A stretch of 59,319 bases of DNA from Flavobacteriia bacterium (lineage in GTDB: Bacteria; Bacteroidota; Bacteroidia; Flavobacteriales_D; Crocinitomicaceae), in NCBI GenBank assembly GCA_947446925.1, contig CANFHU010000016.1, positions 1 through 59,319 on the forward strand, given 5' to 3'. The position numbers were made by a program, and so were the translations under genes. Under the pieces are notes generated by a model. The model was not told the origin of the DNA. It worked only from the letters and a program-made list of their open reading frames with translations, and ran no database searches. Positions 1 to 14,334 of the stretch are shown here, piece by piece. The stretch's first letter is position 1; each line of letters opens with the position of its first letter.

Positions 1-657
1 AATCGCTGCTGTTGGTGCAGTGTTATCTTTGGTGATGGTGATGCTTTGAGTTGCTGTACATCCATTAGAACCAGTTACTGTTACTGTATACGTACCATTT
101 GTTCGAACAATAGTAGTATCGTTCGTAGAACCTGTGGACCATGCATAAGAACTACCTCCTGTTGCCGTAAGCGTGATAGAAGGTGTTGTACACGTAATAG
201 CGGTGGTTACTGGTGTTGTAATCGCTGCTGTTGGTTGCGTGTTAACTTTGGTGATGGCGATGCTTCGAGTTGCTGTACATCCATTAGAACCAGTTACTGT
301 TACTGTATACGTACCATTTGTATTAACGATGGTTGTATCGCTCGTAGAGCCTGTGGACCATGCATAAGAACTACCTCCTGTTGCAGTAAGCGTGATAGAA
401 GGTGTTATACATGTAATAGCTGTGGTTACTGGTGTTGTAATCACTGCTGTTGGTGCAGTGTTATCTTTGGTGATGGCAATAGAGGTTGTATCCGTACAGC
501 CATTAGATCCCGTTACCACAACACTATAAGTACCATTTGTTCGAACAATAGTAGTATCGTTTGTAGAACCTGTGGACCATGTATAAGAACTACCTCCAGT
601 TGCTGTAAGCGTGATAGAAGAAGTTGTACACGTAATGGCTGATGATAACGAATTTAT
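1..657 (-). repeat. Three tandem 219-bp repeats inside the giant gene
   Basis: Units begin at about 1, 220 and 439, with an exact 219-base (73-codon) period and only scattered differences. Each codes for one Ig/PKD-like module with a WSTGSTxDTTIV core followed by NGTYxVxVTGSNGCT. The array continues to the window edge, so the full copy number is unknown. The high DNA identity contrasts with the older, diverged SprB repeats upstream and points to recent duplication. Confidence 0.9.
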
Positions 658-3600
658 AGCAACAATAGGTAATTGATTGATTGTAACTACAACCGGAGAT
701 ATTGTATACCCTCCAAGCGAATTGGTTGCCTTAATGTAGTATGTACCGTTACTAGCAGTTGAAGGTGTAGTAAACGGAATAGTTGCAAAAACATCCGTCC
801 AATAGGTATAGGTTAATCCAGATGCTGAACCTGATGTAATTGCAGGAAGTGTGATATCCTTTGTTGCAGGGAAACAAGAAGCTGTAGGATTAGTAATAAC
901 CAAATTAGGTTTTGGAATGATAGAAACACTCGAACTATTATTACTAGCATTTAAATCATCTGTTGTTGAACTTACAATTGCAGTGTTTAAATAATCACCA
1001 CTACTATTTACACTAGCAGTTATTACTAGAGAAGCACTAGCTCCATTCGATAGGGATCCTATTGACCAAATACCAGTAGCATTTGAAAAACTTCCCTGTG
1101 TAGGCGCTGTATTACTTACATAAGAATAACCGGAAGGTAAAACATCGCTTACTTGAACATTGCTTGCAGAACTACTTCCATTATTAGAAACACTTAATGT
1201 AAATTGGACGTTAGTTCCTACCGTTGGCGAAGATGAGTTTACTGTTTTAACAATACTTAGATCTGCTTGCGGAATAACCGAAATCGTGACACTGGAAGTA
1301 TTATTAGACAAATCAGAATCTGGTTGATCAGTGGTAGCAATACTAGCGGTATTCGTATAAACACCTGAATTGTTAATACTAGCATAAATTTTTAATGAAG
1401 TAGTCGCAGAACTCGCCAATGTACCAATACTCCAAATTCCTGAATTAGCAATATAAGCCCCTGCACCATTATCAGAAATATAAGTATAACCTGATGGTAA
1501 CAAATCATTTACTTTAACATTTGTAGCCGAATTTGATCCTAGATTAGACGCCGTCAAAGTAAATTCAATAACGCTTCCGCTGTATGTAGAACTTGTATTT
1601 GCAGTTTTTATAATTTTCAAATCTGCATTAGCTCCTGGTACGATTGTACTTGAACTTGTGTTGTTCGGGATATTTGAATCAGTAACGGAAGAAGTTACAC
1701 TGGCAGTATTTACATAATTACCGGATGCTAATACGGTACTAGTAATTGTTAGGCTAACAGAATCTTTATTTGCAATAGTTCCTATTGTCCATTCTCCTGT
1801 TACATTATTAAAACTACCTGCTGAAGGTGCAGTATTAGAAACAAAACTAAATCCTGTAGGAAGCGCATCGGTTACTACAACATTAGATGCATCACTCGGT
1901 CCATCGTTATAAACTTTTAGTGTAAAAATAACATTGCTACCTACAATTTGTGACGGGTTGTTCACTGATTTTACAATTCGAAGATCAGAAACTGGAACAG
2001 GAGTAGTAGTTACAGAAGCGGTATTATTTGATAAATCTGGATCTGGCTGTAAATTAGTACTTGTAACTGTTGCGGAATTAGTATAATTTCCTGTAGAATT
2101 TACCTTAGCAGTTATTTGTAAGGAAGCAGTTGTTCCTGTCAACATATTACCTATAGTCCAAACATGTGTAGTCGTATCATATTTTCCAGAACTATTATCT
2201 GAAACATACGAATAACCAGCAGGTAAATTATCTGTAACAGAAGCTCCTAAAGCTAAATTTGTACCCAAATTCGTTGCCGTTAAAGTAAATACAACATTTT
2301 CACCAACATTTGGAGTAGGAGTATTAACTGTTTTAGTCAATTGCATATCAGCTTTTCCATCTACGGATATAGATACTAATGCATCTTCACAAACACTATT
2401 ATTTGGAGAAGGAAGACAAACTCTATAGGTAAAACTGTCATCTCCAAAATAACCGGTATTCGGAGTATAGGTAAAAGTTCCATCTGAATTAAAAACTAAA
2501 GTACCATGACTTGGATTTGAAATAGAACTATAGGTTGAACCTACTTCATAATAATCATTTGTTTTGACTGTATCTGAAATTGCAGTATTAATAGGTGTAC
2601 CATATGCGTCATCTATTGCACTCGGTCCCACGGTAATTGTATATTTTCCATTTGCACTTAAACCGGTTGCATCTATTACGCGATAATCTAAAGTAAAAGT
2701 ACCTGCATAACCAGTTTTAGGTACAAATGTAAATGTTCCGTCACCAGATCCCCATGTTAAAGAACCTTGTGAAGGTGTTGGTGCAGAAAAATTGAAAAAC
2801 TCTAAATCAGTTAACAATCCATCCGCATCACTATCATTTCCAGCAACAGATGCTGTTAATGGTGTATTGTAATTTGTCTTTAATGTATCATTTAAAGCGA
2901 TAGGTGGCACACAACTAATTGATGCTACGGAAGCACTTCCGTTAGTAGTACATCCATTTGCATCCGTTACACCTACGGAATAGGATCCTGCACTTAAATA
3001 GGATAATGCTTGTGTTGTTATACCATTACTCCAATTATACGTATATGGTGCAACACCACCTGTAACAACAGCAAATGCAGAACCACTTGGATAAGTACAA
3101 CCTGTAGCATACGTAGTAACAGCAACGTTTAATGATGGTGCTGTTCCAACTATTACTGGTAAGGTTTCTGAACATCCTTTACTGTCTGTTATAGTTACGG
3201 TATATGTTTTTGGGGTAAGATTTAATGGATCTTCTACAATTTGTGAAGTGTTTGTCCAAGAATAATTAAATGGTGCTGTTCCATTTTGAATTGCTAAATC
3301 TATCGATCCTGTCGGACCACCACAAGAAGAAGCGGGAGTGACAGTAGCAAACAATTCGATTTTAGTAGTAGGCTCATTAACAATTGAACTCAAGGTATCT
3401 GTACACCCTTTATTATCTGTAACTATTAAATTGTATGTACCTGCAAATAAACTAGAAATGGTTGATGTAGTAGCTCCTGTTGACCAATTATAAGTTAATG
3501 GCGCTGTTCCTCCTGACGCAGTTGCAACAATTTCACCAGTAGAACTACCTAAACACACTACATCCGAAATAGTAGATCCTACCGTTAAGGAGGAGGCTGG

Positions 3601-6600
3601 CTGCGTTAATGCACTAGATGCTAACGACTTAGAACAACCGTTAGCGTCTGTAACTGTTGCTGTATAAATACCTACTGGTATACCATTTAAATCTTGGTTG
3701 GTAGATGCATAACTATTTGGTCCAGACCATGAAAAAGCATAGGGTGCCGCACCACCAGTTACAGATAAAGTGATTGTTCCATCTGAACCATTGGTACATG
3801 AAATGTTTTTATTCAACATATTCAATGCGATCACTGGTGATTCTGAAATATCAAAATTAGATACGGTAGATGTACAATTATTAGCATCTTTCACAACTAC
3901 GGAATAACTTGCTGCACCCAAAGAAGTTCTATCTTCTGAATTAGTTGTTCCTACAATATCAGACCAATCATAAGTATATGGACTTGTTCCTCCTGTTACA
4001 GATATATTAATTGCTCCTGAATTTTGACCATTACATAAAACGGAAGTAACATTCCCTGAAATACTTAATGCAGATATTTCTGTAATTGCAGTTTGTAATA
4101 CCGTAGTACACAACTTTGCATCGGTTACTGTAACAGAATAAGTACCTTTACCTAAGCCTGTTGCGGTTGCACTTGTTTGACTTGCTGCTGCTACATCCCA
4201 AGCATAACTATATGGTGAAGTTCCTCCAGTAACGGAAACTGTAGCAGCCCCAGACGCACTTCCAAAACATAATACATTTGTTTGGGAAGAAATAGTCGAA
4301 GTCAAATCTGCTAATGGCTCTGTAATTGTATAGGTAGCTGTAGCTGAACAACCGTTATCATCCTGCACAATAACGGAATAACTTCCTGAACTAACTCCGG
4401 ATATATCTTGAGTAGTTGATCCATTATTCCATAAGTAGGTATTGCTACCTGTTCCACCTGTAACACTTAAATCAATAGCTCCATTCACTCCACTATGACA
4501 ACTAACATGTGTAAGATTTGAAGTTAAACTTAATAAAGCTGGCTCTGAAAGGGTTGCCGATGTGCTAAACGTACAGCCTAATGCATCTGTAACTGTTAAG
4601 TCATATATGCCTGAAGATAAACCGGATAAATCTTTCGTACTCGCTGTAAATAAACTACTTACTTTTGTCCATGCGAAACTATATGGAGCAGTTCCTCCAC
4701 TAACCGTTGTTCGGATAATTCCAGTTGAACCTCCATAACATGAAATATTAGTTATCGCTGCAGATGCCGTTAAACTAGTTGTTGGTTGTGTTAATACAAA
4801 AGAGGATGTCAACGAACACGCATTCTGATCAGATACCGTTAATTGATACGTATTTGCGGATAATGAACTTCTATCCTCAACGTTTGATGCACCTGCAATA
4901 TCATTCCAATCATAAGTGTAAGCACCTGTTCCACCCGTAACTGTGATATTAATAGAACCTGTTGAATTACCATTACATGAAATATTAGTATTGGTATTAT
5001 TTATCTGTAAAGCATTTGGTTCTGTCAAAGTAACTGTAGCGGAAGATAAACATCCATTATCTGTATCTGTTATCTCTGCATTATAAATTCCTGAAGACAA
5101 TCCTGAAATATCTTCAGACGTTGAACTATAACCACCTGTGGTTTTTGACCATTGATAACTAAATGGTCCTACTCCACCATTAACAGTAATTTGAATTTCA
5201 CCATCCAGAAGATTATAACAACTTATATTTTTGGTGAGATCTATAGTTACACTTGCACCATCACTATTCCCAACAGCATAATTTTTCACAATAGAACATC
5301 CTGTATTGTTAGTTACTTTAACAGTATAATTACCTGAAGAAATAGCACTTAAATCTTGTGTTGTAGCACTTGTATTCCACAAATAAGTAAAGGAAGATCC
5401 TCCAGACGGAGTAATATCAATTGCACCTGTCGTTGAGCCACAGGTAGAACCTGTTGTAGATTCAGTAACTGTCGGTGAAGTTGAAAGACTAACTACGACA
5501 TCTGCAGAGGCTGAACATCCCTTTTGATCAGTAACTAAAACAGAATAGGTTCCTTCATCCAATGGAGAAGTTGCATTATATACGATCGGACTTGCTTCAG
5601 ATGAAGAAAAACTATTTGGACCTGACCAAACATAGGAAATTCCTCCATTCGCGGATAATTGTAGGTTAGAACCAATACATGCAGCTCCTAAAACACTAGC
5701 TGTTGCACTTGGTGCATGAACATAAACAGTCAAAATGGTTTCCGAACTTTCTCCACATGTATTATTCGATTTTACTTTAATTGGATAGGAACCGATGGAT
5801 ACTGCATTCCAATTAACTTTTATTTCTGAAGTTCCTTGTCCACTTACAATAACTGCTCCTGTTGGAACTGTCCATGTATAACTTGTAATATCCACATCTG
5901 GTGTAACAGAAAATACTTTTGCAGCATCCGATTTACAAACATCCACTCCAATACAACCAACTGCATCTGCAATTACAATGGAACTAGAGGTAGTTATACA
6001 ATTATTAGCATCTTTAACAGTTATTGTATAAGAACCTGCTAATAAACCAACACGATCCTCTGCATTACTTGTCCCTGAAAGATCAGCCCAATCATAGGTA
6101 TATGGTGCAGTACCATTGGATGCTGTGATATCAATTGTACCGTTTGAAGTACAAGATACATCTGTAGATGAAACCGATAAATTTATCGAAGAAGGTAGTG
6201 TTATAGATTGTGAACCAAGTATGACTTCACAACCAATATCATCGGCATCTCGAATTTGTACACTATAAGTTCCAGCAGGTAGTGATGAAAAATTACCACT
6301 AGATTGCCATGAACTTGAATTCAATCGGTATTCATAATTTGTAGTACCAGAAGGGTTGGAAATAGAAATAGTACCTGTTCCATCACCACATGCGGTATTT
6401 GTTTTAGCTACTGTTGCTGTTAATGAACATGTACGTAATGCACCATGGCCAAACTGTCCAAAAGCGGATAATCCTTTTCGTGAAACGATTGGAGTAATAT
6501 AGCCTGTGATATCGTGTGTACCATTTAATGCCCAATCTGCTATATCACTCGTTCTTTGTATTACTCGAACTGTATTGTCTTCTGTATAGGTAGCAAATCC

Positions 6601-9600
6601 ATTTCCGGATAATTTCAAATCATAATTGGTGCTGGCCAAACTATTTGCTTCAGTTAACGTCCAGTAACCCTCAGGGAAAACATTTGTTACTGTTTTTGAA
6701 TTTTCAGTTAAAGAAGCTGTATTATTCCAACCTGGAGAAGATGCAATAAAACAAGCAGTTAATGAACCATTGGTTAAATTAACGAAATTTAATTCGGCTA
6801 AATTTGAATTTGTTGTTGTACCAACAGGAAATTGAATAGCTGTTCCAGTTGTATTTATCCAACGTTTAAAACAACCAATTATATTACCTGCTGTATAACT
6901 CAAAGTTCCAGCAGCAGAAGTAGATGTTCCAAGTTCAAAAGTTGAACCACTTGCAGAAACATCAATATTTCCGGATGTCATTGTTAATGTATTTGTAACC
7001 GTAACTGGTTTTAACAACACTAAACTTTTGGATGATTTTGCAAGCGTTAATTTATAAAATGACAAAGTAGCAGAACTTCCTCCAACCGATTGATCACTCG
7101 TAGTATTATTAAAAATAACTGTCCCACTATTCGGTGTAAACGTTCCTCCATTATTTAACCAATCTCCATTGACTGTTAATGTATTCGTACCTGAAATTGT
7201 TAATGTTGCACCACTACTTATTGTAATTGAATTACAAACACCTCCTTCAGCACCAATCGTTGGTTGATTTCCACCAGAAGGTATAATTACATTCGTTGCA
7301 GAGGTAGGTATAACAGATCCACACCAGTTAGTAGCAGTATTCCAATCTGTACTGGTAACTCCACTCCATGTTCCGGAAATACAAGAAGCCGTTACATTAA
7401 TAATTCCTGTCGCAGGTGCAAAATAGGTAGCATTCTTATTTGTTGCTGAGGAATTTGTATGACCCCAAGATCCATTAACTTGTTTGGTATTTACAAACGT
7501 TAGTGTATTAGCGGAAGATGTTAACCCTGTTCCTAAATTTAATAAAACACCACTCGCAATCGACAAATCTCCATTTACGGTTGTAGCCGAACTTATGGTT
7601 TTAGTACCTGAACCTGAAAACACTAAATTATTAAAAGTGGTAGATGAAGCAGACAAAATTTGACCTGCATTATTAAAGTTTACCGTACTTGTTCCTGGAA
7701 CAAAAACAGAGCCTATACCATCCCAAACTGTTGCTCCATTTGCATTCACATTTAAAGTACTTGAACCTCCATTCAAAGTACCAGTTGTTAAAGTGACATT
7801 TCCGGTAAACGTATGCGTCAGTAAATTACCTAAATTTAAAGTACCACCGGAGCCATTAATTGTCAATGCTCTTCCATTCACATTTCCATTAAATGTTGCT
7901 GTTCCTGAAGTTTTTGATAAAGTTATTGTTCCTGTTGTTGTAAATCCAGCAATGGACTGACTAGCAGATGTCCCTAAAATTGTAACACCGCCTGTACCAC
8001 TTGTTAAAGTACCTGAATTAATAAAATTTCCTCCTAATTTTAATAAAAAGGAAGAAGGTGTTAATGTTGCACCTGATTTTATTGTTAATGGTATTCCAGC
8101 ACTAAACTCTTTAATCTCATTTAAAGTAACTGAACCTGCAGTGTTCGCAATAACAACCCCGCCACTTGCTGCAAAAGGTGTTATCCATTCTTCAGAGGAT
8201 GCTGTTCGAGCATCTGTTGACTTATATTGCAATGTTGCGGAAGGGCCATATGTAACTACACCTGCACCAGTAACCGCAGGACTAGCTGACCCTTCTAAAG
8301 AAAAAGTACCATTTACTGTTGGTGTAGTAGCAAATGTTTTTACACTTGTACCTGATAAAGTTAAGTTTGTATATGTGGTAGGATAACAGGTTTGTGTACC
8401 AGATCTAGAATAATTTACAAGTGTATTAGTACCAGCAAAATTAATAGTATTTGTTCCATTTAAAGTAAAAATAGTTCCACCAGAACTTAAATTCAATACA
8501 CCTGTTTGTGCACCTGTTGCTAATGAAAAAGTAGTGGAATTTCCAGTTCCATTAACGGTTGTAACAGTACCATTTAAAGTTACGACACCACTTCCTATAT
8601 AGAACACTGCGTTCGCAAGTTTAGATGCTGTACTAGAACTTTTACTTGTCAAGGTGGTAGTACCAGAGACTGTTAAATTTGAAATGGTGGATGTTAAAGT
8701 ATGAGTAAAAGTTCCTGTTCCAGTGGTAGTATTACTTCCGACGTCTAAAGTATTACAGGTTAATGTACCATTACCAGAAATTGTAACTGCTCTATTTGTT
8801 GTTGAATTATTTAATTTAACACCATTAGATATTGCCAAAGTACCAGCAATAGAAAGTGTGGAAGAAGTTGTATTACTGAATGTTAGTGCATTTGCAGAAG
8901 AAGAACCAGAAAAATAAGCTGTTCCACTAGCCTTACTAAAAGTAAGCGTTCCTGTATTTGAAAATGCCCCTATATTTTGAGTAGCAGTTCCTGTAACCGT
9001 AATTCCACCTGAACCAGAAGTTGTTCCCCCATTATTTACAAAATCACCATTTAGTGTAATTGCATTACTAGAAGCAGCAAATGTAACACCACTATTTAAT
9101 GTTAAAGTTCCATTCATGGTTAAGGATGATGCTAGAGTTTTAGTTCCTGAACCAGAAAGTGTTAAATTATAAAATGTAGAATTTGTAATTGTTTGGGCTG
9201 TTCCATTAAATACAACCGTACTTGAATTACTAGTGAATGTGCCACTATTAGAAAAGTTTCCACTAACTGTCAATACATTAGTTCCTGTAATTGTTAATGT
9301 AGCACCTGTTTGAATAGTTAAGTTATTACAAACTGCACCTGCAGCACTAATATTAGGTTGATTACCCCCTGATGCTATTACTACATTGGTGGAAGAAGTT
9401 GGTAAGGTAGAATTACACCAGTTAGATGCTGTATTCCAATCAGTACTTGTAGCACCAGTCCATGTACCCAAAATACAGGTATTAACATTTATAATTCCCG
9501 TACTAGCTGCAAAATAAGTCGCATTTATAGTACCTGCGGAAGAACCTGTACCTCCATAACCTGCATTATCTGGCTGGGTTACACCATTAAATTTCAAGGA

Positions 9601-10581
9601 TAATGATTTATGTGTTAACCCTGTTCCTAAGTTTACTTTAGCACCACTAAGAATACTCAAACTTTGAGTAATTGTTTTTGCTGCATTAAAAGTTACGTTG
9701 GATCCACTGGTATTTGCAATGATAACACCACCTGAACCACTAAAAGTAGTTGGAAATTCAATTCCTGTAGTCTGTGCACCTGTACCTTTATATTGTATTG
9801 TAGATGCAGAACCATAGGTTGGTGCTGTACCTGTAATTGTTGCAGTACCTTCAATAGATAAAACCCCATTGATAGTAGAGCCGGTTAAAGTCTTAGCATT
9901 TGAACCAGATAAAGTAAGATTATTGTAGGTATAAGACCCTACTGACTGTGCTCCAGCACCATTAAATTCAACAGTTCCAAAACTACCACTTGAGTTTGAC
10001 AAAGTTCCTGTTGCTAAAAATGCACCACCAACTTTTAAAATACCATTGTCTGTAAAAACTACTGTTGCACTTGTATTAGAACCCGTTATATCACCTGTTA
10101 CATTAACCGTTCCAGTAGTAATTGTAATTTGATGTCTATTCGTACCCCCTCCACTAGTAAATGCAACACTTCCTGCATTTAAACTTCCTGCTCCTACTAT
10201 TATTTGATTAAAACTAGATGCAGATCTTGGTAATGTTATTGCACCACTAACATCTAGAGTATACGTACCCAATGTTAATGAAGTTGCTGTACTAGTAGTA
10301 AATGTAACACTCGCACAAGCCGCATTTGCAGTTAATGTGACATTAAATCCACCTTCAATTGTAACAACATCCCCAGCAACAGGATACACTCCCGTTCCAA
10401 CGGCTGAACCACCACTTGTAGTAGACCAAGTTGTATTAGAAGTCCAGTTACCTGATTGACGAGAGAAATAGGTAGCAGCAAAAGAGCTCGTAGATATCCC
10501 CACTAACAAAACCAAGAATAAAATTGTTCTAAAATTTATTTTGGATAAAGTTGGAATAGCGTTATGGAATTTTTTTCTCAT
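1..10581 (-). CDS. Giant SprB/DUF11-repeat surface protein, 3' end cut by window
   Basis: The frame stays open from an ATG at 10579-10581 to the left edge, at least 3,527 codons; the C-terminus, and any T9SS sorting domain, lie outside. Layout from the N-terminus: signal peptide (residues 1-35, ending SSFA); about 1,350 residues of Gly/Ser/Thr/Asn-rich beta-solenoid-like repeats containing STDWNTASNW-type motifs; about 12 SprB-like repeats (about 1385-2550; Cys near each start, then GG(T)xPY.Y.W and TVTDxNGC); two cadherin-like/Big_9-type domains (about 2560-2735); four DUF11 repeats (about 2740-3220); then three near-identical 73-residue Ig-like repeats at the edge. Proteins of this type in Bacteroidota are T9SS-exported adhesins used in gliding or attachment; that role is inferred. 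The gene starts 34 bases after the neighbouring SprB-repeat gene, so cotranscription is likely. I read most of the frame by translation and saw no stop. Confidence 0.9.
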   Translation of the reverse strand, partial: MRKKFHNAIPTLSKINFRTILFLVLLVGISTSSFAATYFSRQSGNWTSNTTWSTTSGGSAVGTGVYPVAGDVVTIEGGFNVTLTANAACASVTFTTSTATSLTLGTYTLDVSGAITLPRSASSFNQIIVGAGSLNAGSVAFTSGGGTNRHQITITTGTVNVTGDITGSNTSATVVFTDNGILKVGGAFLATGTLSNSSGSFGTVEFNGAGAQSVGSYTYNNLTLSGSNAKTLTGSTINGVLSIEGTATITGTAPTYGSASTIQYKGTGAQTTGIEFPTTFSGSGGVIIANTSGSNVTFNAAKTITQSLSILSGAKVNLGTGLTHKSLSLKFNGVTQPDNAGYGGTGSSAGTINATYFAASTGIINVNTCILGTWTGATSTDWNTASNWCNSTLPTSSTNVVIASGGNQPNISAAGAVCNNLTIQTGATLTITGTNVLTVSGNFSNSGTFTSNSSTVVFNGTAQTITNSTFYNLTLSGSGTKTLASSLTMNGTLTLNSGVTFAASSNAITLNGDFVNNGGTTSGSGGITVTGTATQNIGAFSNTGTLTFSKASGTAYFSGSSSANALTFSNTTSSTLSIAGTLAISNGVKLNNSTTNRAVTISGNGTLTCNTLDVGSNTTTGTGTFTHTLTSTISNLTVSGTTTLTSKSSSTASKLANAVFYIGSGVVTLNGTVTTVNGTGNSTTFSLATGAQTGVLNLSSGGTIFTLNGTNTINFAGTNTLVNYSRSGTQTCYPTTYTNLTLSGTSVKTFATTPTVNGTFSLEGSASPAVTGAGVVTYGPSATLQYKSTDARTASSEEWITPFAASGGVVIANTAGSVTLNEIKEFSAGIPLTIKSGATLTPSSFLLKLGGNFINSGTLTSGTGGVTILGTSASQSIAGFTTTGTITLSKTSGTATFNGNVNGRALTINGSGGTLNLGNLLTHTFTGNVTLTTGTLNGGSSTLNVNANGATVWDGIGSVFVPGTSTVNFNNAGQILSASSTTFNNLVFSGSGTKTISSATTVNGDLSIASGVLLNLGTGLTSSANTLTFVNTKQVNGSWGHTNSSATNKNATYFAPATGIINVTASCISGTWSGVTSTDWNTATNWCGSVIPTSATNVIIPSGGNQPTIGAEGGVCNSITISSGATLTISGTNTLTVNGDWLNNGGTFTPNSGTVIFNNTTSDQSVGGSSATLSFYKLTLAKSSKSLVLLKPVTVTNTLTMTSGNIDVSASGSTFELGTSTSAAGTLSYTAGNIIGCFKRWINTTGTAIQFPVGTTTNSNLAELNFVNLTNGSLTACFIASSPGWNNTASLTENSKTVTNVFPEGYWTLTEANSLASTNYDLKLSGNGFATYTEDNTVRVIQRTSDIADWALNGTHDITGYITPIVSRKGLSAFGQFGHGALRTCSLTATVAKTNTACGDGTGTISISNPSGTTNYEYRLNSSSWQSSGNFSSLPAGTYSVQIRDADDIGCEVILGSQSITLPSSINLSVSSTDVSCTSNGTIDITASNGTAPYTYDWADLSGTSNAEDRVGLLAGSYTITVKDANNCITTSSSIVIADAVGCIGVDVCKSDAAKVFSVTPDVDITSYTWTVPTGAVIVSGQGTSEIKVNWNAVSIGSYPIKVKSNNTCGESSETILTVYVHAPSATASVLGAACIGSNLQLSANGGISYVWSGPNSFSSSEASPIVYNATSPLDEGTYSVLVTDQKGCSASADVVVSLSTSPTVTESTTGSTCGSTTGAIDITPSGGSSFTYLWNTSATTQDLSAISSGNYTVKVTNNTGCSIVKNYAVGNSDGASVTIDLTKNISCYNLLDGEIQITVNGGVGPFSYQWSKTTGGYSSTSEDISGLSSGIYNAEITDTDNGCLSSATVTLTEPNALQINNTNTNISCNGNSTGSINITVTGGTGAYTYDWNDIAGASNVEDRSSLSANTYQLTVSDQNACSLTSSFVLTQPTTSLTASAAITNISCYGGSTGIIRTTVSGGTAPYSFAWTKVSSLFTASTKDLSGLSSGIYDLTVTDALGCTFSTSATLSEPALLSLTSNLTHVSCHSGVNGAIDLSVTGGTGSNTYLWNNGSTTQDISGVSSGSYSVIVQDDNGCSATATYTITEPLADLTSTISSQTNVLCFGSASGAATVSVTGGTSPYSYAWDVAAASQTSATATGLGKGTYSVTVTDAKLCTTVLQTAITEISALSISGNVTSVLCNGQNSGAINISVTGGTSPYTYDWSDIVGTTNSEDRTSLGAASYSVVVKDANNCTSTVSNFDISESPVIALNMLNKNISCTNGSDGTITLSVTGGAAPYAFSWSGPNSYASTNQDLNGIPVGIYTATVTDANGCSKSLASSALTQPASSLTVGSTISDVVCLGSSTGEIVATASGGTAPLTYNWSTGATTSTISSLFAGTYNLIVTDNKGCTDTLSSIVNEPTTKIELFATVTPASSCGGPTGSIDLAIQNGTAPFNYSWTNTSQIVEDPLNLTPKTYTVTITDSKGCSETLPVIVGTAPSLNVAVTTYATGCTYPSGSAFAVVTGGVAPYTYNWSNGITTQALSYLSAGSYSVGVTDANGCTTNGSASVASISCVPPIALNDTLKTNYNTPLTASVAGNDSDADGLLTDLEFFNFSAPTPSQGSLTWGSGDGTFTFVPKTGYAGTFTLDYRVIDATGLSANGKYTITVGPSAIDDAYGTPINTAISDTVKTNDYYEVGSTYSSISNPSHGTLVFNSDGTFTYTPNTGYFGDDSFTYRVCLPSPNNSVCEDALVSISVDGKADMQLTKTVNTPTPNVGENVVFTLTATNLGTNLALGASVTDNLPAGYSYVSDNSSGKYDTTTHVWTIGNMLTGTTASLQITAKVNSTGNYTNSATVTSTNLQPDPDLSNNTASVTTTPVPVSDLRIVKSVNNPSQIVGSNVIFTLKVYNDGPSDASNVVVTDALPTGFSFVSNTAPSAGSFNNVTGEWTIGTIANKDSVSLTITSTVLASGNYVNTASVTSSVTDSNIPNNTSSSTIVPGANADLKIIKTANTSSTYSGSVIEFTLTASNLGSNSATNVKVNDLLPSGYTYISDNGAGAYIANSGIWSIGTLASSATTSLKIYASINNSGVYTNTASIATTDQPDSDLSNNTSSVTISVIPQADLSIVKTVNSSSPTVGTNVQFTLSVSNNGSSSASNVQVSDVLPSGYSYVSNTAPTQGSFSNATGIWSIGSLSNGASASLVITASVNSSGDYLNTAIVSSTTDDLNASNNSSSVSIIPKPNLVITNPTASCFPATKDITLPAITSGSASGLTYTYWTDVFATIPFTTPSTASNGTYYIKATNSLGGYTISPVVVTINQLPIVAINSLSSAITCTTSSITLTATGGSSYTWSTGSTNDTTIVRTNGTYSVVVTGSNGCTDTTSIAITKDNTAPTAVITTPVTTAITCITPSITLTATGGSSYAWSTGSTSDTTIVNTNGTYTVTVTGSNGCTATRSIAITKVNTQPTAAITTPVTTAITCTTPSITLTATGGSSYAWSTGSTNDTTIVRTNGTYTVTVTGSNGCTATQSITITKDNTAPTAAI
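905..2370 (-). repeat. Four DUF11 repeats (about 120 codons each)
   Basis: Four successive coding units each open with a D(L/M)xIxKTxN-like motif and contain a (V/L)P(S/T/A)GYxYVS-like segment and a final NTAxV...DxxxxNN(T/S)(S/A)SV motif. This is the conserved-repeat (DUF11) pattern of bacterial surface proteins. Unit starts on the minus strand lie near 2362, 1985, 1630 and 1270. Confidence 0.8.
2900..6430 (-). repeat. Array of about 12 SprB-like repeats
   Basis: Units of 60-75 codons carry the SprB signature: a Cys near the start, G(S/A)I.(I/L)(S/T)V(T/S)GG(T)xPY.Y.W, then L.(A/S)G.Y.(V/L).V.D..GC. The copies are diverged at the DNA level. The array sits in the middle of the giant surface protein; the same repeat occurs five times in the upstream 888-residue protein. 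Confidence 0.85.
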
Positions 10582-10615
10582 AATATAATTTCTAAATTCA
10601 TGATCTAACCTTCTT

Positions 10616-13282
10616 CTAATAACCAATGGTAGCTGGTGCACTAGGCGAAGGATTAATAGTATTTATTGTAAATGTTTTAGTCTCTGTACAACCTACTGAA
10701 TCCGTAACCACTACAGTATAAATACCAGTTTTTAATCCAGTAATAGAAGCGGTAGTAGCACTGAATGCATTTGGACCAGACCAAGAGTAGGAATACCCTG
10801 AAGTTCCTCCAGAGACAGTTAATACGATGGAACCATCTAATGCATTAGAACAAGATTCATGTACTATAGTAGAACTAAGATTTAAAGCAGTTGCTTGAGA
10901 TAAAGCGGTAGTATAAGTTGAAGTACAATTTTTACTATCTGTTACGATCACACTATAATTGCCCGCTGGTAAACTTGTTCTATCTTGCGTTGTAATACTA
11001 GTACCCCAATTATAAACATACGGACTCGTACCACCGGAAACGATCAAATCAATGGATCCGGAGGAAACACTATAACATGCTATGTTTGTATTTACAGATG
11101 AAACTGTTAAAGTACTTACTGGTTCACTAATTGTAATCAAGGATGACGTTTTAACGCAATTGGATGCATCTGTAACTTGTAATGTATAAATTCCTGCTTT
11201 TAGATCCGTTCTGCCTACAGTGGAAACTCCATCATTCCATAAATATTTTAATGGAGAAATTCCGTTTGTTGTAGCAATAGAAATTACACCTGTAGCATCC
11301 CCATAACAATTAACATTGGTAAATGTTGGTGTTATTGAAATTTCTGCTGGTTGAGTAATTGTACTACTTGCAGAAACTTTACAACCATTTGCATCCGTTA
11401 CTGTCAAGGAATACGTACCACTAGCTAAACTATTTCTATTTTGCGTAGTTACTGCATCCGACCACAAATAGGTATAGGGTGCTGATCCTCCTGAAACAGC
11501 GGATACTAATATGGAACCAGTATTAATACCAAAACAGTTAATATTTGTAGGTGTTAATGTTAAAGGAGAAATTGCTGTATTCTGACCAATAACAACGGTG
11601 AACGATTTAACACATCCTGAACCATTACCAGTCGTAACAGTTACCGTATAATTACCTGGAGATAAATTTGAAATAGTTGTACCTGTTCCAGATCCAGTTC
11701 CACCTCCTGTTTTTACCCAAGACCACAAATATGGTCCGGATGCACCAGTAATGGTCATGACAATTTTACCATCTGAAGCACCAAAACAAGCATTCGAAAG
11801 TGAAGTAACAATAGATACATCGCAGGATACAACTGAAGTTTTTGAAGTGTTAAATACGCGACCACAAGCATCACCAATACTCACTGAAATTGGACAATCA
11901 ATCGTAGAAGAAGCTACTGGTGGAGTAAAAATTGCTTTGGTTTTATCGCCTGGGTAAGCAGGGTCTGCACTAAAACTACCTCCACAAGCAGAGGAAAAAC
12001 TTACGGTATAATCATTTGAGTTAATTCCTACTGGAAATGTAAAAGACACTGGTATTGGTGATCCTGATGTTACAGCACTAGGAAATCCACTAACATCTGG
12101 TGTGATGGTTGCATTCTTTCCAGTCATAAAAGAGAAATTAAAAAATATTCTTTGTGCTGCAATATTTGGTGGTAGTGTAGCCTTATTAAAGGAATGCGCT
12201 GCTTCAATCATAACATATCCTCGACTTTCATCACCAAATGCTCTTCCATAAGCAACTACTGCTGCTCTATGATTTAATGCCTTATCCACAGGTTTAACGT
12301 GATCCGGATCCCAAACTGCTATTGTAGTAGTAGGTCTCCAACCTGGCGCTAGTGGTATGTAAATTTGCTCAGATCCATTCTGTGTTGCTGCATCGATAGG
12401 TCCAATAAATTGCATATATGGATCACTATGATTATCGTAAAGATAAGGTGGTGTTCCACTTGTATGACTACTATATAAGAATAAGGCATTTTCCGAATAG
12501 GGACCAACTCCAGTAGCCGTTCCTGTTTTCTCCGCTAAAAAATTAGTCTGCTGTGAAGGATTTGCAGGATTAAACATATCTTCTAATGTACTACCAGCGT
12601 GACAATTAGTCCATATAGATCCATGATATGTTTGATTCCAAAAATACAAATTTTGATGTGTCGACCACTGAGGATCTGCATGTGGCATTACAAATATATC
12701 ATCACAATAACCTAACTGAGAAGGTAATTTTGTAATACTATATGCTGTAGTAGGAATGCCTGCATTTGCAAAATAAGGAACTGCAACAGGGCCATTTTGT
12801 AAATCTAAAGTCCAACGAGGTACAGATGTAACTAATAAAGTCTTGGCAACAGGAACACTTATAGGAGATGTAATTGTCGTACCAATTACCCCTTGAGTTT
12901 CCCAATATGTAATTCGTGCATTGACAGCTGTAGAGCGATACTCATTTAATATGATAAATGGTCCTCCTTTATAATCTACACCATTATAGGTAAAATCAAC
13001 TCCGTCTTTCACTTTACCTGGAGCAATCACCCATTTAATCGGTACTTTATAATTCGCAATCAAATCATAAATCATACCATAGGGTTTAAGTCCATTACCA
13101 ATCGTTTGAGGAACAACCCCCATATTGATAATATAGGAACCCGATGATATTGTCTCAGTTGTCGTTTGACCAAAAACAAAAGGACTAAAAAACAAAAGAA
13201 ATAAAATACTATGTATTCTTAATTTTAAATTTTTAGAAAAAAATTTTTCTAGGCTAGAATTGAACTTAAAATAATTGATCAT
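10616..13282 (-). CDS. Secreted SprB-repeat protein with unrecognised N-terminal domain
   Basis: 888 residues. A signal peptide (about 1-38, ending FVFG before QTTT) is followed by a domain of about 360 residues that I do not recognise, with conspicuous PHADP, WTNCHAGS and FGDESRGYVMIEAAH segments. A linker region with Cys-rich Ig-like features follows, then five SprB repeats (about 495-875). It ends ...SAPATIGY at a TAG without a visible T9SS sorting domain, so its export route or anchoring is unclear. The His/Asp/Cys-containing motifs could suggest an enzyme or ligand-binding domain, but no function is claimed. It is the first gene of a likely two-gene unit with the giant protein. The terminator of the atp operon lies just upstream. 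Confidence 0.85.
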   Translation of the reverse strand: MINYFKFNSSLEKFFSKNLKLRIHSILFLLFFSPFVFGQTTTETISSGSYIINMGVVPQTIGNGLKPYGMIYDLIANYKVPIKWVIAPGKVKDGVDFTYNGVDYKGGPFIILNEYRSTAVNARITYWETQGVIGTTITSPISVPVAKTLLVTSVPRWTLDLQNGPVAVPYFANAGIPTTAYSITKLPSQLGYCDDIFVMPHADPQWSTHQNLYFWNQTYHGSIWTNCHAGSTLEDMFNPANPSQQTNFLAEKTGTATGVGPYSENALFLYSSHTSGTPPYLYDNHSDPYMQFIGPIDAATQNGSEQIYIPLAPGWRPTTTIAVWDPDHVKPVDKALNHRAAVVAYGRAFGDESRGYVMIEAAHSFNKATLPPNIAAQRIFFNFSFMTGKNATITPDVSGFPSAVTSGSPIPVSFTFPVGINSNDYTVSFSSACGGSFSADPAYPGDKTKAIFTPPVASSTIDCPISVSIGDACGRVFNTSKTSVVSCDVSIVTSLSNACFGASDGKIVMTITGASGPYLWSWVKTGGGTGSGTGTTISNLSPGNYTVTVTTGNGSGCVKSFTVVIGQNTAISPLTLTPTNINCFGINTGSILVSAVSGGSAPYTYLWSDAVTTQNRNSLASGTYSLTVTDANGCKVSASSTITQPAEISITPTFTNVNCYGDATGVISIATTNGISPLKYLWNDGVSTVGRTDLKAGIYTLQVTDASNCVKTSSLITISEPVSTLTVSSVNTNIACYSVSSGSIDLIVSGGTSPYVYNWGTSITTQDRTSLPAGNYSVIVTDSKNCTSTYTTALSQATALNLSSTIVHESCSNALDGSIVLTVSGGTSGYSYSWSGPNAFSATTASITGLKTGIYTVVVTDSVGCTETKTFTINTINPSPSAPATIGY

Positions 13283-13410: not shown

Positions 13411-13443
13411 AAAAAAAGGCTACCCAAAATGGATAGCCTTTCT
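13411..13443 (-). terminator. Terminator of the atp operon
   Basis: On the minus strand GGCTATCC, a short AT loop and GGGTAGCC form a hairpin with one mismatch, followed by a T-run (plus-strand A-run 13411-13417). It starts about 20 bases after the atpG stop. Confidence 0.8.
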
Positions 13444-13461
13444 ATTATAATAAACTTAATA

Positions 13462-14334
13462 TTAATTATTTAGAGCTTCAGCACCACCAACAATCTCTAA
13501 AATTTCATTGGTAATCGCTGCTTGACGTGCTTTGTTATAACTTAATGTTAAAGAACGTTTTAATTCTTTCGCATTATCCGTCGCTTTATGCATCGCAGTC
13601 ATACGTGCTCCATGTTCGGAAGCATGAGAATCTAACAATGCTTTAAAGAACTGTGTTTTCAATGATTTTGGAATCAATTCTTCCACAATCTCTGATTTAG
13701 ATGGCTCAAAAATATAATCATTAGATACTGTTGTATCTTCTGAAACAGTCGCAACAATTGGCAATAATTGTTCTGCTTTAACATCTTGTACACTTGCATT
13801 AACAAAAGAGTTGTATACCACTACTACTTTGTCAAATTTACGATCCAAGAATAATTTAATCACATTTTCGGTGATTTCAGCAGCATTCGTAAATGTAAGA
13901 TTCGAAAAAATATCATTTACACCAACAGTATCGTTCTCAATACGCAATGGACTTCTTCTAAAAGAATCCGTAATCTTTTTCCCGAAACATAAAATGTTCA
14001 CATTAGAACCTTTATATTCTTTAGAAATCAATTGATTTACTTGTTTAAGTACATTGTTATTGAATCCACCACACAAACCACGATTCGAAGAAATTGCCAA
14101 AATCAAAACATTTGATTCTTCTCTAACTTCTGCAAACGCATTTTCAGACAAATCTAAAGTAGCACTTAAATTACCCAAAATTTCTTGCAACTTATTGGAA
14201 TAAGGCTTCATTTGCGTAATCGCATCTTGTGCTCTTTTCAATTTTGCAGCAGAAACCATCTTCATCGCAGAGGTAATCTGCATCGTAGAAGAAATGGAAG
14301 TAATTCTGTTTTTTATTTCTTTTAAGTTAGCCAT
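13462..14334 (-). CDS. atpG: F1 ATP synthase gamma subunit
   Basis: 290 residues, the normal family length. The N-terminus (MANLKEIKNRI.SI..T.QIT.AMKMV) and the C-terminal helix (SYNKARQAAITNEILEIVGGA) are the two halves of the gamma coiled-coil that forms the rotor shaft inside the alpha3beta3 head. The central RGLCGGFN motif is characteristic. It is the last gene of the operon; atpD and atpC do not follow, as is usual in Bacteroidota, where beta and epsilon are encoded elsewhere. A terminator-like hairpin separates it from atpA. Confidence 0.97.
   Translation of the reverse strand: MANLKEIKNRITSISSTMQITSAMKMVSAAKLKRAQDAITQMKPYSNKLQEILGNLSATLDLSENAFAEVREESNVLILAISSNRGLCGGFNNNVLKQVNQLISKEYKGSNVNILCFGKKITDSFRRSPLRIENDTVGVNDIFSNLTFTNAAEITENVIKLFLDRKFDKVVVVYNSFVNASVQDVKAEQLLPIVATVSEDTTVSNDYIFEPSKSEIVEELIPKSLKTQFFKALLDSHASEHGARMTAMHKATDNAKELKRSLTLSYNKARQAAITNEILEIVGGAEALNN

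Follow-up and report, generated by a model that had tools for sequence, protein, structure and literature searches.

Many proteins of the GATase/ThuA fold do not catalyse, and in the true GATases a Glu lies two residues past the His (HxE) near the C-terminus. A surface representative of this fold is Bt1761 (SGBPlev), whose C-terminal levan-binding domain is of ThuA-like fold according to the available part of its report (PMC7618045). With regard to gene arrangement, the accessible text of a study of gliding Flavobacterium describes sprC and sprD, which are encoded with sprB and sprF, as supporting the function of SprB (PMC5879114). On that description, sprCDBF is the nearest precedent for helpers that are encoded together with a giant protein.

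Here we describe an 888-aa ORF with an ATG start (10616–13282, minus strand), referred to as the short gene, and the giant ORF beside it. Both lie in the window, i.e., the whole 59,319-nucleotide stretch of DNA that was analysed. Our best overall explanation, to which we assign a probability of roughly 0.45, is that the short protein bears an exported, enzyme-like head and is paired with the giant in a subfamily that lacks a T9SS sorting domain (CTD). Bt1761 is comparable in fold and layout, as its ThuA-like domain is borne on Ig-like domains in a surface protein of the Bacteroidota; unlike the short protein, it is lipidated, belongs to a glycan-uptake complex and carries the domain at its C-terminus, and the available part of the report mentions no SprB stalk (PMC7618045). 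The likeness to sprCDBF is one of gene arrangement. For example, the giant of G461 ends in CHU_C (a type B CTD), with a PorP/SprF ORF and then an OmpA-family ORF behind it.

Organization of the short gene and its surroundings

The short protein begins with a signal-peptide-like N-terminus (residues 1–38; 13169–13282), recognized by eye from a hydrophobic stretch and a cleavage-like site. The head domain that follows is composed, in the predicted model, of a ferredoxin-like N-terminal half (residues 39–152; 12827–13168) and a GATase/ThuA-like half (residues 151–393; 12104–12832). Behind it lie a putative Ig-like linker region (residues about 401–482; 11835–12082), assigned by eye, five SprB repeats (10769–11794; Pfam PF13573, E 1.8e-36, 5 stretches) and a conserved C-terminal tail with the motif PxxPxxI near the stop (10619–10648). 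All of these features are on the minus strand. The giant partner ORF (1–10641, minus strand) has 3547 aa in view with DUF11, SprB, Big_9 and PKD_6 modules by Pfam, and its C-terminus lies beyond the contig end, outside view. The likely ATG of the giant, chosen by eye, is at 10584, 31 nt past the stop of the short gene, and the two-gene unit suggested in the preliminary description is plausible from this position.

Upstream, a terminator-like hairpin with 14 pairs and a T tail (13413–13443, minus strand) lies between the short gene and an atpG-like gene named by eye (13462–14334). The transcription unit of the short gene probably starts after this hairpin, with the short gene at its head; the whole region holds two terminator-like hairpins against a shuffle mean of 1.7, i.e., no excess. 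An atpG-like gene, likewise named by eye, is also found near the domain gene in two other loci, downstream of it in both (L020:5368–6297 and L026:5179–6066), and this neighbourhood in differing arrangements is probably due to chance.

The last 120 aa of the short protein match SprB alone and contain no sorting domain, as had been noted earlier from the sequence. An NCBIfam Por_Secre_tail match at residues 530–555 is taken as a look-alike because of its position amid the repeats. The SprB stretch (10769–11794) also has a match (E 8.5e-16) to phrog_2973, a family of Hoc-like phage head decoration proteins, which likely reflects the Ig-like repeat type in common.

The head domain is a new family with a predicted GATase/ThuA-like fold

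The preliminary description had found no known family for the residues ahead of the repeats, and our searches bear this out. Residues 39–400 gave no usable match in Pfam and no match in NCBIfam; against PDB sequences the best single-sequence E was 1.6, and a profile search returned none. Across 25 family members, Pfam yielded two matches to the head part (E 0.27 and 3.3, one member apiece), and the ThuA model PF06283 was unmatched by any of them at E up to 10 with HMMER filters on. A profile–profile comparison of ThuA with the head domain, using 23 of 26 ThuA loci after a start-motif filter had dropped three, gave no match either. BPL_N was set aside as a relative since it matches in 1/20 and 1/99 genomes, too few for a profile, and self-alignment gave no internal duplication of the two halves of the head. 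The stretch of about 360 residues is a genuine domain, as 46 full-length copies (the window included) and five distant relatives are alignable over it. No prior description was found in the literature searched, which has few subscription journals.

The AlphaFold2 model of the head domain, built from 25 sequences, has a mean pLDDT of 90.1 and a pTM of 0.90. Its top Foldseek match is a ThuA-like protein at an E of only 5.4e-3, and VIA-align superposes the same protein with a Z of 13.5 and an rmsd of 3.4 over 205 residues, followed by 8aa2_G (Z 13.1) and PLP-synthase glutaminases (Z 12.9 and 12.1). At a Z of at least 8, 227 of 1000 chains match; the 50 rows listed span Z 10.5–13.5 over 156–205 residues of the predicted model, and most of these chains are of the GATase-like alpha/beta fold. 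The top matches mostly cover model residues about 113 to 355, and the C-terminal half of the head is therefore very probably of class I GATase/ThuA-like fold, as modelled. The N-terminal half, when folded alone, reaches a pLDDT of 93 and looks ferredoxin-like; its best VIA-align match, UreE at Z 6.4, is too weak to name a relative and was not used. As judged from the model, the head domain is thus new at the level of the family but not of the fold, of which enzymatic and non-enzymatic members are both known.

Invariant Cys and His residues of the head domain

Conservation was assessed over the 46 full-length copies (the window included) and five distant relatives from loci of the G458 order, these five being the only rows taken into the alignment from among the weak or partial matches found there. 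In domain numbering, to which 38 is added for protein numbering, C155, H163, C189, S193, Q253, W277, H325, R340 and N344 are invariant in 46/46 copies. All of these except S193 (46/51) stay invariant in 51/51 rows once the distant relatives join, and E267 and W46 are then kept in 45/51 and 50/51, respectively. In the short protein, the Cys and His residues among them are Cys193 (domain C155; 12704–12706), His201 (domain H163; 12680–12682) at the end of predicted strand 158–161, Cys227 (domain C189; 12602–12604) and His363 (domain H325; 12194–12196) after predicted strand 318–322, all on the minus strand. The model places strand 184–188, C189 and helix 190–196 in an elbow arrangement, so that Cys227 would occupy the nucleophile-elbow position.

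The three polar motifs earlier suspected to form a site, PHADP, WTNCHAGS and GDESRGYVMIEAAH, each hold an invariant Cys or His (51/51). H201 of PHADP is accompanied by a Pro kept in 50/51 rows, C227 of WTNCHAGS by S231 in 46/51, and H363 of GDESRGYVMIEAAH by an invariant G355; the remaining positions of the motifs vary. Taken with the predicted fold, this conservation makes a putative active or binding site in the head domain well supported. The head resembles PLP-synthase glutaminase, TrpG-type subunits and ThuA in the predicted fold of its C-terminal half, the elbow Cys and the His past the last strand. It differs from class I GATase/ThuA proteins in having no Pfam or NCBIfam match, in its signal-peptide-like start, in the extra ferredoxin-like half and in a Cys-to-His stretch (C227 to H363) of 136 residues. 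At position 327 (His+2), moreover, Glu is not among the five commonest letters, and L, F, I, H, Y and others occur.

Two further cysteines bear on the state of C189. Cys154 and Cys181 are present in an identical set of 13/46 rows, the pattern of an optional disulfide. Such a bond, joining the starts of adjoining strands, would put C155 at the sheet end opposite C189. A C155–C189 disulfide is accordingly judged unlikely from the co-occurrence of Cys154 and Cys181 and the strand order, and C189 is probably a free thiol in the modelled fold. The same geometry bears on another explanation, in which the invariant Cys and His residues bind a metal or, alternatively, take part in a disulfide between molecules that tethers the protein to a partner, on the lines of SprF–GldK in gliding. 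The two invariant cysteines have no obvious partner within the domain, and disulfide attachment of outer membrane proteins in gliding is described in the available part of a published report (PMC12635249). However, the model sets C189 at the elbow, the nucleophile position of the fold, and C155 and H163 would lie at opposite strand ends, making one four-residue metal site unlikely. We consider this explanation improbable.

The structural matches also allow the head to be a glycan-binding (lectin-like) tip, with the short protein and the giant as two adhesins of one operon. The top matches include 8aa2_G (Z 13.1), and glycan enzymes (GH42, Agd3 and NDST1) are found among the other VIA-align matches. 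The aromatic residues W46 (50/51) and W277 (51/51) are conserved, and the stalk modules in the scanned domain proteins and giants are SprB, Big_9 or cadherin-like. A glycan-binding tip, however, has no need for an apparently unpaired elbow Cys and two His residues that are kept in 51/51 rows, and this alternative appears doubtful. On balance, whether the head is an enzyme rather than a binder is an even call, and catalysis by the domain is inferred.

SprB-ended copies that lack a sorting domain are paired with a large second ORF

Relatives of the short protein fall into two architectures. A C-terminal Pfam scan of 19 CTD-less proteins matched SprB in 17, and the 12 families listed include no sorting domain. 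By comparison, each of 16 relatives chosen as CTD-bearing has a sorting-family match at E up to 0.01, namely Por_Secre_tail in 15 (in L108 at an E of 2.5e-4, which falls short of the Pfam cut-off) and only CHU_C in L024. In the 17 SprB-ended proteins the stops align within a residue or two, and PxxPxx[IV] is present in the final 11 residues of 16 of them.

Pairing was counted over the 16 of 17 SprB-ended CTD-less copies with downstream DNA in view (in L006 it is not in view); L009 and L014, which are cut within the gene, were excluded. A second ORF lies downstream on the same strand in 16/16 copies, as the next gene in 15 and the next but one in G646, where a 549-aa gene lies between the two, 33 and 29 nt from its neighbours. 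This ORF has at least 1,600 aa in view in 14 of the 16; in L005 and L011 the contig stops after 225 and 578 aa of it, respectively, so that its full size is not visible. The second ORFs next to the short gene have a signal-peptide-like start, as judged by eye. By comparison, none of the 15 CTD-bearing genes with their downstream side in view (L116, where the stretch ended, is excluded) adjoins an ORF of more than 1500 aa; in G686, the next ORF has 1311 aa. A CTD-less copy of another type, in G775, has no SprB ending and no giant. The co-occurrence with a giant expected in the preliminary description thus holds for the SprB-ended CTD-less copies but not for the domain family at large, in which homologues are regularly found without one.

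Given this pattern, the short protein and the giant probably constitute a functional unit, and the two proteins may form a physical complex. A programmed frameshift between the two genes is judged unlikely, because the 15 giants that were read have a signal-peptide-like start of their own (by eye) and the gaps between short gene and giant range from –26 to 102 nt. The tail motif PxxPxxI was also considered as a common linker within the giants and rejected: the 15 giants contain 15 matches, seven have none, and the counts are mostly near the shuffled mean. Five of the matches fall in the two giants of G465 (four where shuffles average 1.6, and one where they average 1.3), linker-like between Ig-type modules, and the tail of the short protein may accordingly be a cut-off linker. 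The two short-plus-giant pairs of this genome, a member of the Saprospiraceae, stand in tandem (L031:2437–17021 and L032).

Composition of the giants

Pfam was run on four of the 16 giants, namely those of the window, L010, L017 and L013. SprB, Big_9, PKD_6 and cadherin-like modules make up this set, and DUF11, NHL and Big_2 each occur in a single giant. Within its first 1000 aa, the window's giant aligns partially with only eight of the 14 others, a result that speaks against a single specific substrate in this portion. The giants of L010 and L017, complete to the stop, gave no sorting-domain match at E up to 0.001, and this weakens the idea of a standard CTD on every giant. Two stop-complete giants without a Pfam sorting domain (L028:5718–18740 and L031:2437–13128) have in common a dockerin-like or calcium-repeat-looking end, seen by eye, that may be another anchor. 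The window's own genome has 11 PorP/SprF matches. In G646, contig 1 holds a 13315-aa open frame (near 1526000–1544000) with many repeats like those of the L011 giant.

A putative exported unit of short protein and giant

In the explanation that we favour, the GATase/ThuA-like domain and its ferredoxin-like half would be borne as a head on an Ig/SprB stalk, and the head would most likely act as an extracellular cysteine hydrolase or transferase. Cys227 would serve as the nucleophile and His363 as the base, with an oxyanion region near His201. Counting against this explanation are the missing Glu at His+2, the modest Foldseek E, the lack of a sequence link to ThuA by profile, the non-catalytic members of the fold such as the levan-binding domain of Bt1761, and the G775 copy without a giant. 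Many relatives would reach the surface by means of their own T9SS sorting domain; the CTD-less short protein and the adhesin-like giant would most likely reach it as one functional unit, in which the giant supplies an export or anchor function in trans. That export of the short protein depends on the giant is a tentative proposal, held with less confidence than the functional pairing itself. A much more specific scheme can be drawn, in which a new family of surface cysteine transferases or hydrolases is made with a giant T9SS adhesin and acts on it by cross-linking, trimming or anchoring, and the CTD-less form is exported by the giant with the PxxPxxI tail as docking strand; we regard it as a long shot.

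If correct, the favoured explanation would mean that Bacteroidota have put a widespread fold, its Cys/His site apparently intact, to use at the ends of their surface stalks. It would also mean that a protein linked to the T9SS can do without a sorting domain of its own if a giant is encoded beside it. The short/giant pair would then offer a direct test of T9SS cargo export in trans, and the site gives named residues to mutate in proteins that otherwise match repeats and sorting tails only. For a specialist, the surprise would lie in how consistently the CTD-less form is accompanied by a giant.

Distribution and phylogeny of the head domain

The head domain is rare and patchy in distribution, and has so far been encountered in Bacteroidota only. 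It was found in 2/59 genomes of near relatives, including the window's own, in 1/395 genomes of a phylum-wide sample, again the window's own, and in 35/396 genomes from the order to which the Saprospiraceae bin G458 belongs (matches at E up to 0.001, a few of them weak or partial). The phylum-wide figure indicates that, unlike sprCDBF, the domain does not belong to the standard gliding machinery. Genome contigs yielded 24 loci on scanning, all listed as metagenome bins or uncultured isolates. Plasmid or phage carriage was rejected, as none of 72,556 plasmid and 50,697 phage sequences matched at E 1e-5.

The tree comprises the 46 copies and two of the distant rows, the latter separated from the rest by about 3.9 changes per column (3.07 + 0.85 over the root as drawn). 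Fifteen split-type rows form one starred clade, of which 12 are paired, two are contig-cut and one is G646. Five rows that are fused or CTD-bearing cluster with the two G465 copies (99/99), and G637 stands alone at a third split-type place (94/99, not starred). Over the 29 rows that could be labelled, by hand, the label requires three changes. Independent pairs of CTD loss and giant presence number two on starred branches, too few for a test (p 0.5), and both are in the expected direction.

These relationships also bear on the view that the short gene is a stranded front part, left over from a single ancestral gene, which lost its CTD by splitting and whose product would be periplasmic with no role alongside the giant. 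Fused forms are indeed known. L018 encodes a 2506-aa form with no recognized CTD and 14 Big_9 stretches, followed by a 651-aa gene; L019 encodes 1898 aa with a CTD, and in G032 the domain is in frame with DUF11 repeats. In addition, a signal-peptide fusion without a CTD served as a control in an export assay, as stated in the available part of that report (PMC10994853). By comparison, the split form retains the site and the terminal tail (16/17) and occurs at three places in the tree, and the aligned copies are without visible decay, all of which makes a stranded front quite improbable next to the paired, enzyme-like head that we favour.

A distant sister family (L097, L099, L100, L101 and L103; about 590–730 aa) keeps the same Cys and His residues. 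A type A sorting domain was detected in L097 and L101, and the head part has no Pfam or NCBIfam name in the three members scanned (L097, L101 and L103). Domain genes also occur in tandem, at about 650–700 aa each and with sorting domains of their own, in two loci (L025:7223–11368 and L107:6592–10654).
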